DNA of 64,000 bases from contig NZ_JAAIKB010000009.1 in the NCBI RefSeq assembly GCF_011040385.1, forward strand, positions 1 to 64,000. The letters run 5' to 3'. The notes beneath the pieces were generated by a model. The model had not been told where the DNA came from. It did not search any database and saw nothing but the letters and a program-made list of their open reading frames with translations. Made by a program: the position numbers and the translations under genes. The DNA comes from Falsiroseomonas algicola (GTDB taxonomy: Bacteria; Pseudomonadota; Alphaproteobacteria; Acetobacterales; Acetobacteraceae). Each line of letters begins with the position of its first letter. Positions within the stretch are counted from its first letter, which is position 1. Shown here one piece after another: positions 19,398 to 55,316 of this stretch.

Positions 19398-19591
19398 TTG
19401 GGTGAGGGGGGGACTGCCCTTTCGGGGAAAGCCCTTGCCTCCCCCGCGCCTCCCGCGATAAAGCCTCCTCCAGCATCAGGAGTTGGGCCGACGCCCAACG
19501 CCAACCTGCCTTCCCGGGCAAGGTGGCGCTCCCGCAAGGGGGGATGCGGCCTCACCGGCAACCAATCGGGCAGCGCCGCCGTCGGTTCGAT

Positions 19592-37894: not shown

Positions 37895-38374
37895 TTCTCG
37901 TTGTTCCACCGCGTGACTTGGGCCTGACACGGAGGATGTGGCAGCCCTGCTTCGCCACATCCGCGAATCGTCCACGACAACTCTGCAACAGGGACGGTAA
38001 CAACGCCGTGTCTGGTCTTGCACGTCCCGTTTCTTGGACGTTTCGACCGGCCTGCCGACCCCGGCAGGCGCATCGCCGGCCAGGCGGGCCCGGTTCCACG
38101 GATGGCGGGGGTCGCCGCCACGGCGCGAAAAGCCGCGGATTGCCGAGCGTCGGGGCCGCGCTTGATCGGCATCAAGACGCCGTCAACAGCCCCCGGGCAA
38201 GATGGCGCCGTGGCCCGCGCGGCCCGGCGGGGCAGCCGGATCCTCAGTTCCAGCCTGCCGGATCGCGAAAACGTGATCAATGCGATGCGCGACGTCGATC
38301 ACCGAAACCGGGCCGCGCCCGCGAACGCCGCCCCGCCCCGGGCGTATAGTGCGGTGCAGCAAACGCCGTGACCG
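37895..38374. other. 480-nt gap between the autotransporter and icd genes
   Basis: It holds the promoters of two divergent genes. A 7-bp hairpin CCTGCCG/CGGCAGG with loop ACCC lies at 38051-38068, without a T-run. Several frames are open over more than 200 nt but are Arg-rich shadows. A TATAGT at 38345-38350 could be the icd -10, but no good -35 is placed with it. I see no other element. Confidence 0.4.
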
Positions 38375-41610: not shown

Positions 41611-42222
41611 CTACTCCGCGCTGCCCTTCTTGGCGGCCTTCAACTGCTCCAGCTGCCGGCGCAGCGTCTCCACCTCGGCCTGCAGCGCCGCAAGCCGGGC
41701 CGAATCGGGGGCGGGCTCCGGCGGTTCCATGCCGGTCCGGAAGGGGGCGAAGAGGTTCATGGCGCGCTCCATCATCGCCATGTTCTGCTTGCCCACTTCC
41801 TCCAGCCCGCCGAAGGGCATGAAGCCGCCCATCGTCTGCTCCACCGTGCGCCGCACCTGGTCATGCTGGCGGGAGAAGGCGCCCATCACGCTTTCGAGGT
41901 AGCGCGGCACCAGCGACTGCATGCTGTCGCCATAGAAGCCGATGATCTGCCGCAGGAAGGACGTCGGCAGCAGGTTCCGCCCCTTCGCCTCCTCCTCGAC
42001 GATGATCTGCGTCAGCACGCTCCGCGTGATGTCCTCGCCCGACTTGGCGTCGTAGACCACGAAGTGCCGGCCGTTCCGCACCATGACGGCCAGGTCCTCC
42101 AGCGTGACGTAGGAGGAGGATTCGGTGTTGTAGAGCCGCCTGTTCGCATACTTCTTCACGACCACCGGGGGGGTCGAGGGGCCTTCCGTCTCCGCCGTCG
42201 CCTGCGTGGTGTCGTTTGCCAT
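41611..42222 (-). CDS. phaR: Polyhydroxyalkanoate synthesis repressor PhaR
   Basis: 203 residues. The N-terminal DNA-binding domain has KKYANRRLYNTESSSYVTLEDLAVMVRNG, and the second domain has GEDITRSVLTQIIVEEEAKG and LPTSFLRQIIGFYGDSMQSLVPRYLESVM, both signature blocks of the PhaR family. The C-terminus has a coiled-coil stretch (LAALQAEVETLRRQLEQL). PhaR binds both PHB granules and promoters of phasin genes, linking granule presence to expression. It diverges from the PHA synthase genes across 170 nt. Confidence 0.96.
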   Translation of the reverse strand: MANDTTQATAETEGPSTPPVVVKKYANRRLYNTESSSYVTLEDLAVMVRNGRHFVVYDAKSGEDITRSVLTQIIVEEEAKGRNLLPTSFLRQIIGFYGDSMQSLVPRYLESVMGAFSRQHDQVRRTVEQTMGGFMPFGGLEEVGKQNMAMMERAMNLFAPFRTGMEPPEPAPDSARLAALQAEVETLRRQLEQLKAAKKGSAE

Positions 42223-53934: not shown

Positions 53935-54657
53935 TCAGTACATGTGCTGGCCGCCATTGATGGACAGCGTGGAGCCGGTGATGAAGTCGGCCTCATCCGC
54001 CGTCAGGAAGGCGACGCCGCGCGCGATGTCCTGCGCGGTGCCGAGGCGCCCGCGCGGGATGCGGGCGATGATCTTCTCCAGCACGTCGGCCGGCACGGCG
54101 CGCACCATCTCCGTGTCCACATAGCCCGGCGCCACGGCGTTCACCGTGACCTGGTTGCGCGCGCCTTCCTGGGCCAGCGCCTTGGTGAAGCCGTGGATGC
54201 CCGACTTGGCGGCGGCGTAGTTCACCTGGCCGAGCTGCCCGGCCTGGCCGTTGACGGAGCCGATATTGACGATGCGGCCGAACTTCCGGCTCGTCATCCC
54301 ATCCCACACCGCCTTGCACATGTTGTAGCAGCTGCCGAGGTTGGTATCGATGACGTCGTCCCACATCTGGCGCGTCAGCTTGCGCATCATGGCGTCGCGC
54401 GTGATGCCGGCGTTGTTCACCAGCACCTCGACGGGCCCGACCTCGGCCTCGATCTTCTGCACGGCGGCGACGCAGGCATCGAAGTCACCCACGTCGAACT
54501 TGTAGCAGGGGATGCCGGTGCGCTCCGTGAACGCCTGCGCCGCGGCGTCGTTGCCGGCGTAGGAGGCAACGACCTTGCGGCCCGCCGCCTGCAGCGCCTC
54601 GCTGATCGCGGCGCCGATGCCACGCTGACCACCCGTCACCAATGCAACCCGTGCCAT
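53935..54657 (-). CDS. phaB: Acetoacetyl-CoA reductase PhaB
   Basis: 240 residues, SDR fold. VALVTGGQRGIGAAISEAL is the cofactor loop, LVNNAGITRDAMMRKL, the catalytic Ser in NIGSVNGQAGQLGQVNYAAAKSG with Tyr and Lys, and NAVAPGYVDTEMVRAVP close the match to PhaB. It reduces acetoacetyl-CoA to (R)-3-hydroxybutyryl-CoA with NADPH. The start is the ATG 54657. It is separate from phaA by 8.7 kb and is divergent from the small RNA candidate described below. Confidence 0.95.
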   Translation of the reverse strand: MARVALVTGGQRGIGAAISEALQAAGRKVVASYAGNDAAAQAFTERTGIPCYKFDVGDFDACVAAVQKIEAEVGPVEVLVNNAGITRDAMMRKLTRQMWDDVIDTNLGSCYNMCKAVWDGMTSRKFGRIVNIGSVNGQAGQLGQVNYAAAKSGIHGFTKALAQEGARNQVTVNAVAPGYVDTEMVRAVPADVLEKIIARIPRGRLGTAQDIARGVAFLTADEADFITGSTLSINGGQHMY

Positions 54658-54808
54658 GCCGGCTCTCCCACCCTGTTGTCGCGACGCGCCTTGCGCGCCC
54701 CTCGCTTCCCTGCATGCCGCCGGGCCGGTTGGCCTGGCAACACCAACCCATCCTCGCGCGCCCGGGGCAGGAGAGCAAACACGCATCAAGGGCGAAGAAC
54801 ACGGCGTT

Positions 54809-54850
54809 TTGATTCACATCAAGGCAAGGGCGCATGGCGTGCCCTACTCT
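54809..54850 (+). promoter_or_regulatory. FNR-type promoter of the small RNA
   Basis: TTGATTCACATCAA at 54809-54822 is a perfect match to the FNR/Anr/FixK box TTGAT-N4-ATCAA. TACTCT at 54845-54850 is a fair -10. A start seven bases further, at 54857, puts the box centre at -41.5, the position of class II FNR activation. No annotated gene lies on the plus strand until 55131. The box is about 158 nt from the phaB ATG and could also act toward phaB. Confidence 0.7.
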
Positions 54851-54856
54851 CCGCCA

Positions 54857-54948
54857 TGTCCCGAGGCGCCCCTTTGCGCCGCACGGACGTTCCTGGACGT
54901 TTCCTCCCTGAACTCAGCCCCGGCGGACAACCGCCGGGGATTTTTTTG
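54857..54948 (+). ncRNA. Candidate FNR-activated small RNA, alpha-r8/MmgR-like
   Basis: About 92 nt between an FNR-type promoter and a strong terminator, with no coding sequence. It has a 5-bp hairpin GGCGC/GCGCC (54865-54880), a single-stranded stretch with two GGACGTT repeats and TTTCCTCCCT (54901-54910), and the terminator hairpin. The core TTTCCTCCCT recalls the conserved segment of the alphaproteobacterial alpha-r8 (suhB RNA/MmgR) family, known in Sinorhizobium for limiting PHB accumulation. CCTCC can pair with Shine-Dalgarno sequences. Family assignment is from memory and the 5' end is inferred. Confidence 0.65.
54919..54948 (+). terminator. Strong intrinsic terminator of the small RNA
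   Basis: CCCCGGCGG (54919-54927) pairs with CCGCCGGGG (54932-54940), a perfect 9-bp stem with loop ACAA, followed by A and TTTTTTT (54942-54948). It is the best rho-independent terminator in the window and no protein gene ends in front of it on this strand. Confidence 0.93.
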
Positions 54949-55130
54949 CCATCCTAACCGGTTGCCACGCCATCGGCAGGATCGTCTGCGGGGTTCGGCT
55001 GTGCTGATGCCGGACGACGCAACCGATGGTGGAAAACCGACGCATGCGATTTTGTCTTCACGGATACGTGATCGGTATGCAATACGCTTAGCACCGGCCG
55101 CGCTTGGGCCCTACCCCCAGGACCAACATC

Positions 55131-55316
55131 ATGCAGACCCAGCTGCCCGCCTCCTCGGATGGCGAGAAGACCGACCAGGCCGCCATCATGCTGATGCTGG
55201 CCTATGTCGAGGCCGAATGCCGCCGCCTTGGCGCGGAGGCCGCGGCGCGGCACGCCGCCATGGCGGCCTCCCTGCTGCCCGCGCAGGGCGCGCCGGCGGG
55301 CGTCAGCCTGCACTGA
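55131..55316 (+). CDS. Small hypothetical protein
   Basis: 61 residues starting MQTQLPASSDGEKTDQAAIMLMLAYVEAECRRLGAEAAARHAAMAASLL; one amphipathic Ala-rich helix. A weak promoter (TTGTCT and TATGCA near 55055-55080) and CCCCAGGA before the ATG are possible signals. It converges with metW. Not recognised. Confidence 0.5.
   Translation: MQTQLPASSDGEKTDQAAIMLMLAYVEAECRRLGAEAAARHAAMAASLLPAQGAPAGVSLH

Follow-up and report, generated by a model that had tools for sequence, protein, structure and literature searches.

The described small RNAs closest to the one considered here are MmgR of Sinorhizobium meliloti and SisA-D of Caulobacter crescentus. MmgR has been reported to lower PhaP1 and PhaP2 levels (PMC8401924) and to associate with Hfq (PMC8401924, PMC12559287). 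It is placed under the control of NtrC and AniA/PhaR (PMC8401924, PMC12542648, PMC7143759), and PhaR is reported to bind the mmgR promoter at the site CAATTGTGCACCGCAGCATTA (PMC12542648). SisA-D, which are sponged by CrfA, are alpha-R8 siblings with unrelated promoters; SisA is reported to repress mRNAs by pairing of a 10-mer, named as the alpha-R8 core, over their start regions, and the neighbourhood of the N-formylglutamate amidohydrolase gene is given as the usual alpha-R8 place (PMC12559287). The RNAs of the Rfam model RF00519 are said to resemble in part the AbcR (alpha-r15) RNAs (PMC7143759).

FnrS of E. coli is a small RNA under an FNR-class regulator, and in Rhodobacter sphaeroides FnrL is reported to bind at the promoters of two sRNAs not yet characterised, RSs0019 and RSs2461, so that FNR-class control of small RNAs, as we propose for the RNA described below, has an alphaproteobacterial precedent (PMC4263372). 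FNR-type regulators have also been reported to act on PHB in Herbaspirillum, Pseudomonas and Azotobacter, and in Bradyrhizobium through FixK2 (PMC9049629, PMC7204398). An oxygen-PHB link is not in itself new; one that runs via an alpha-R8 RNA would be. The text of the SisA-D paper (PMC12559287) holds no word starting with oxygen, anaerob or microaer, and "Fnr" occurs in it only within FnrS. Among the matches listed for MmgR or alpha-R8 together with Fnr, mostly from the open-access literature, no FNR-controlled alpha-R8 RNA was found, and a search for a Roseomonas small RNA with polyhydroxy storage returned no literature. A phylogenetic survey of the alpha-R8 family, reportedly by Lagares in 2016, could mention these loci.

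We analyzed a window of 64,000 nt from Falsiroseomonas algicola (contig NZ_JAAIKB010000009.1, positions 1 to 64,000), in which an earlier note had described a small-RNA unit beside phaB. The unit, at 54809-54947, is likely to be an alpha-R8 (mmgR/SisA-D) small-RNA gene, one of four RF00519 places in its genome, with a promoter that depends on an activator of the FNR/FixK class bound at -41.5, and we interpret it as an alpha-R8 paralogue that responds to oxygen, the response to oxygen being suggested by its promoter sequence. It resembles MmgR in the 10-mer core, the 5′ hairpin and the terminator, and MmgR affects PHB while the window copy lies beside phaB; it differs from MmgR in carrying an FNR-type box and no PhaR-like promoter site. 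With SisA-D it probably shares an anti-Shine-Dalgarno action, and its genome, like that of Caulobacter, holds four sibling RNAs that share the core and have unrelated promoters, although the hairpin before the core is weak in SisA and larger in the window RNA.

Anatomy of the unit and its match to RF00519

The unit lies between phaB (53938-54657, minus strand), an acetoacetyl-CoA reductase gene (TIGR01829, 339.2 bits, cut-off 302.1), and a plus-strand gene of 61 aa (55131-55316) that has no NCBIfam match, similar small genes being found near phaB in relatives by reading. It runs on the plus strand and would be transcribed away from phaB. The elements that the earlier note had described were all found: a perfect FNR/FixK-type box, TTGATTCACATCAA, occupies 54809-54822 and is kept in 10/10 phaB-linked units of the genus; the -10 hexamer TACTCT follows at 54845-54850; and the box centre, 54815.5, falls at -41.5 relative to a putative start at 54857, placed 7 nt past the -10. 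The predicted RNA of about 91 nt (54857-54947, its end set at the T run) opens with a 5′ hairpin of two helices and 10 pairs (54857-54889), 5 of which show changes on both sides among the aligned units. The conserved alpha-R8 10-mer, or anti-Shine-Dalgarno core, TTTCCTCCCT, stands at 54900-54909 and is invariant in 11/11 aligned units, and the intrinsic terminator (54918-54947) consists of a helix of 9 pairs, CCCCGGCGG-ACAA-CCGCCGGGG at 54918-54939, paired in 100% of the alignment cells, and then A and T7. The predicted fold of 99 nt lies 3.7 sd below that of shuffles; the core is unpaired in the centroid, and part of it is paired in a short 3-bp helix in the minimum-energy fold.

The unit also appears to be free of protein, as had been claimed. 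A complete start-to-stop frame within the RNA was seen in 3 of the 11 aligned units, at three different places, and the loop lengths vary by 1-2 nt among them, so that no shared protein is seen; a protein-coding reading was rejected, since no reading frame is common to the aligned units.

RF00519 is suhB, the "Makes More Granules Regulator RNA" (mmgR, alpha-R8). When 54700-55120 was analyzed by cmscan (E up to 10), RF00519 was the best of 11 families, with 40.7 bits and an E value of 4.1e-7 at 54862-54954, 0.3 bits under the Rfam gathering cut-off of 41, and FnrS was not among the 11 families listed. The copy at 54862-54954 was not reported by a whole-window scan at the Rfam cut-offs, of which the sole match was a SAM-I/IV riboswitch at 19468-19575 (57.4 bits). 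The ten phaB-linked units straddle the cut-off, two lying above it (45.9 and 43.1 bits) and eight between 31.6 and 40.7 bits. Three features of the family are present in the window copy: the core UUUCCUCCCU, a hairpin upstream of it whose two helices are kept in 11 units, and a Rho-independent terminator after it. The earlier note's assignment to the alpha-r8/MmgR type is thus supported by the covariance-model match, just below the cut-off, and by the 10-mer core, but the window copy is a paralogue and not the canonical mmgR locus.

Promoter and conservation within the genus

In the 6.56-Mb genome (G000) that carries the window there are 7 perfect TTGATNNNNATCAA sites and no site of the reversed pattern, and one of the seven lies ahead of ccoN (TIGR00780, 743.8 bits), a classical low-oxygen gene; for these reasons the unit is more than a chance arrangement. 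The box reads TTGATNNNNATCAA (TTGAT) in nine phaB-linked units and TTGACGTGGATCAA (TTGAC) in G005. A TANNNT hexamer is found exactly 22 nt past the box in 9/10 units and in none at offsets 0-21 and 23-39; the exception, G001, has CAGGCT at that place, and a unit from another genus (G215) has no recognisable -10. This is the spacing between box and -10 of class II FNR promoters, the box being centred at -41.5 from the putative starts, and the box and the phased -10 of 9/10 genomes support the FNR-type promoter that the earlier note had proposed. A generic sigma-70 scan called no promoter, as is expected of an activator-dependent promoter that lacks a -35. From box and phasing, the activator would bind the box at low oxygen and the RNA would then be switched on.

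A phaB orthologue is present in 15/15 genomes of the genus, and core, terminator and box were found divergent from it in 10 of them (G000, G001, G002, G004, G005, G006, G008, G009, G010 and G013). In the other five (G003, G007, G011, G012 and G014), the 1500 nt upstream of phaB contain no TTGA-N6-TCAA and no TTTCCTCCCT; the box therefore goes with the RNA.

An alignment of 11 units, the 10 phaB-linked ones and G215, was paired in 99% of its cells, with changes on both sides in 7 of 19 pairs. None of 500 shuffles reached any of the five structure values, and slid versions of the alignment were only 39-51% paired. Five of the seven double-sided changes are in G215, one is in G009 and one in G002; three of the 5 double-changed pairs of the 5′ hairpin are in G215 only, and so are both of those in the terminator helix. 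Because G215 holds most of the changes, the support from within the genus is mostly preserved pairing, with covariation resting on two pairs.

Sibling copies and their promoters

The four RF00519 places of the genome scored 58.3, 55.2, 45.3 and 40.7 bits, and such places were found in 15/15 genomes of the genus, 53 in total (E up to 0.001). We examined 52 of them (G005:C174 was omitted) and dropped 9 that lack GTTTCCTCCCT and a T run, which left 43 distinct copies falling into three promoter classes. All 10 phaB-linked copies have the FNR box, placed between -87 and -90 relative to GTTTCCTCCCT, and the box is absent from the other alpha-R8 copies of the 15 genomes (0/33). The mmgR type (CTTGGACGTTTCCTCCCTAAACT) accounts for 19 copies, and in 18 of these a PhaR-like TGCRNYGCA motif lies at -40 to -47, the exception, L018, having it at -96. 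The remaining 14 copies have neither the FNR box nor the PhaR-like motif; the one of this third type in the genome of the window, L003, precedes a proline--tRNA ligase-like gene, named by reading.

The TGCRNYGCA motif also occurs in 2/10 phaB-linked units, the window copy included, where it is located inside the hairpin to be transcribed, -24 from the core, and the window copy has no canonical PhaR promoter site. The counterparts closer to MmgR in the same genome are the PhaR-motif copies L001, which stands beside an N-formylglutamate amidohydrolase-like gene (named by reading), and L002, whose PhaR-like site is TTGTGCACCGCAGCA. The canonical mmgR/SisA place is thus occupied by L001, and this, together with the different promoter, makes the window copy a paralogue with another input.

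The same core as in SisA makes the same mode of action likely: by analogy with SisA, the UUUCCUCCCU stretch, with Hfq, would most likely cover the ribosome-binding sites of target mRNAs. With siblings that carry a PhaR-like motif and a copy that carries an FNR box, the genus probably feeds at least two signals, PHB or carbon status and oxygen, into one kind of RNA activity. The likely inputs can be read from the sequence, the PhaR-like motif in the mmgR-type copies and the FNR box in the phaB-linked copy, which offers a direct test of how one RNA family divides among signals; the phaB-linked copy is also a candidate path by which oxygen limitation could reach PHB storage in Acetobacteraceae.

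Relation to the PHB genes

The RNA could directly repress PHB genes (phasins, phaB, phaC or phaR), as reported for MmgR, which lowers PhaP1/PhaP2 (PMC8401924); the RNA adjoins phaB, and phaR, recognized by its PHB_acc_N domain (PF07879, 107.6 bits; 41980-42162, minus strand), lies 12 kb away from phaB. We compared the simple duplex energy of the window RNA at the start regions of these genes with that at a background of 761 home-called starts, taken from the window and a further 1.2 Mb of its genome. The phaB start gave -22.9 (13.9th percentile), phaC -23.4 (11.4th percentile) and the phaR of the same genome -19.4 (41.9th percentile), and phaR lay between the 16th and the 68th percentile in 12/13 loci. 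Phasin starts were ordinary as well: 25 of 30 loci gave a value, among them L182, whose frame is not that of a phasin; 24 values fell from the 22.7th to the 94th percentile and one at the 9.1th. Since pairing at the phaB, phaC, phaR and phasin starts was thus outside the best 5% of the background, a role in PHB is suggested only by position, direct repression of these genes appears rather unlikely, and the oxygen-PHB link raised by the earlier note, with the pairing to phaB and phaR mRNAs that it called for, finds no support so far. Given the position beside phaB, an effect would be sought first in PHB metabolism. The strongest pairings in the genome include several transporter substrate-binding proteins, named by reading.

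Candidate regulator

One Crp/Fnr protein of the genome has CGTCGSRVAGLC (C-x2-C-x7-C) near its N-terminus, followed by a further Cys, and its recognition helix reads ETVSR. In the PDB it matches the FNR-type regulator 9qlt best (E 4e-26), and the NCBIfam models FixK, FnrL and Fnr match it below their cut-offs. Homologues of this Cys-cluster regulator (E up to 1e-40) were found in 7/15 genomes of the genus, all unit-bearing, whereas the 5 unit-less ones had no such homologue; the association has a one-sided Fisher p of 0.019, in which the kinship of the genomes is ignored. In G013 the regulator gene (L261) has an in-frame stop, though the phaB-linked unit looks intact.

A search at 1e-8 in the 8 genomes without the regulator gave only other Crp/Fnr proteins, with no N-terminal cluster. 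Three of these genomes, G001, G002 and G008, bear the unit, and the unit-less G014 has a Crp/Fnr protein with the ETVSR helix and without the cluster. The 1.19 Mb (30%) of G002 that was scanned had a single perfect box and neither ccoN nor a Cys-cluster regulator. In G001, G002, G008 and G013, either another Crp/Fnr protein must serve the box or the search must have missed one. The unit might then be an alpha-R8 paralogue whose box is bound by a Crp/Fnr protein without an oxygen-sensing cluster, of the type of L133, the signal being other than oxygen. The matches at 1e-8 in G001, G002 and G008 are only of the L133 type and are 82.8-87.2% identical to the L133 protein of the genome of the window. 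However, proteins of this type are also present in the unit-less G003, G007, G011 and G014, their recognition helix is EHANR and not ETVSR, and it is the Cys-cluster regulator that tracks the unit, all of which makes such a protein an unlikely candidate, and we favor the activator of the FNR/FixK class.

The FNR box and phaB

The box could instead serve phaB, FNR acting at about -72 (a class I position, estimated from a guessed phaB start) on the phaB promoter, with the RNA a by-product or the leader of some other unit. Putative phaB promoter elements, assigned by sequence comparison (ATCCTCG ... GCAAAC on the plus strand), occupy 54750-54780 in the minus orientation, and from the end of GCAAAC to the FNR box there are 28-30 nt in 9/10 genomes and 37 in one; moreover, effects of FNR-type proteins on PHB genes are reported from other bacteria (PMC9049629, PMC7204398). 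Against this, the box is phased exactly to the -10 on the RNA side, and the five RNA-less genomes keep phaB without the box, which leaves service to phaB improbable as the main function of the box. As a phaB-only element the box was rejected, being absent at phaB in all 5 RNA-less genomes.

The use of the box for the RNA and its use for phaB are compatible and do not exclude each other. A single FNR-type site might drive the RNA from -41.5 and also modulate phaB from about -72, while the PhaR-controlled siblings would give the same RNA activity when PHB changes; we regard this wider scheme as speculative and not likely in full. If true, interchangeable anti-Shine-Dalgarno RNAs would form a single pool on which the oxygen and PHB signals converge, and this pool would set carbon storage and nutrient uptake.

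Occurrence beyond the genus

The pattern box-N60..90-TTTCCTCCCT was found in 11 of 299 sampled genomes of the family and its reversed control in 0/299. The matches came from 4/7 sampled members of the genus, from 1/6 of the genus g16 and from 5/6 of g58, another genus of Acetobacteraceae, and the remaining one, L078, has no terminator and is likely a chance match. The g16 match (L068, RF00519 32.6 bits) is again divergent from a phaB-like gene. In g58, FNR-boxed alpha-R8-like copies (L073-L077) lie near an msrB-like gene, named by reading, which is the immediate upstream neighbour in four and lies some 0.6 kb off in one; the one g58 copy tested, L122, scored 41.3 bits with RF00519. A class-wide search gave 1 match in 385, the genome of the window only and with a slightly different gap, so that the arrangement is rare there, and a plasmid search gave no match.

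A named collection yielded 53 stretches with box and 10-mer, 24 of them with a strong hairpin before the T's (cut at -15 kcal/mol, by which L117 was missed). A different RNA, which combines an FNR box with TTTCCTCCCT and has two hairpins after the latter, was found at L083, L088, L092, L097, L103, L106, L111, L112, L117, L125 and L126, in Rhodobacteraceae (Roseibaca, Roseinatronobacter, Natronohydrobacter and MAGs) and in one MAG of the Alphaproteobacteria. The Rhodobacteraceae RNAs were not accepted as homologues, the 5 of the 11 loci that were tested (L083, L092, L103, L111 and L126) giving no RF00519 match (E up to 0.5); they could be convergent or very diverged. The remaining stretches of the collection look like chance. 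Labrenzia sp. OB1 has a strong RF00519 copy of 69.5 bits (L087:5199-5352), with TTGATCAATATCAA, a putative box, 84 nt before its core.

Two further observations were made in the window. A palindrome, TTCACG-N4-CGTGA, lies at 55057-55071, ahead of the small gene, with a chance expectation of 0.01 in the window; it recurs on the upstream side of phaB in 12 or more of the 15 genomes of the genus, five of these by reading, whether or not they have the RNA, is absent within 700 nt at L062, and is perhaps the operator of some regulator. A second perfect FNR-type box, at 38162-38175, stands ahead of an isocitrate dehydrogenase-like gene, whose best NCBIfam match, 505.1 bits, is just under the cut-off of 509.
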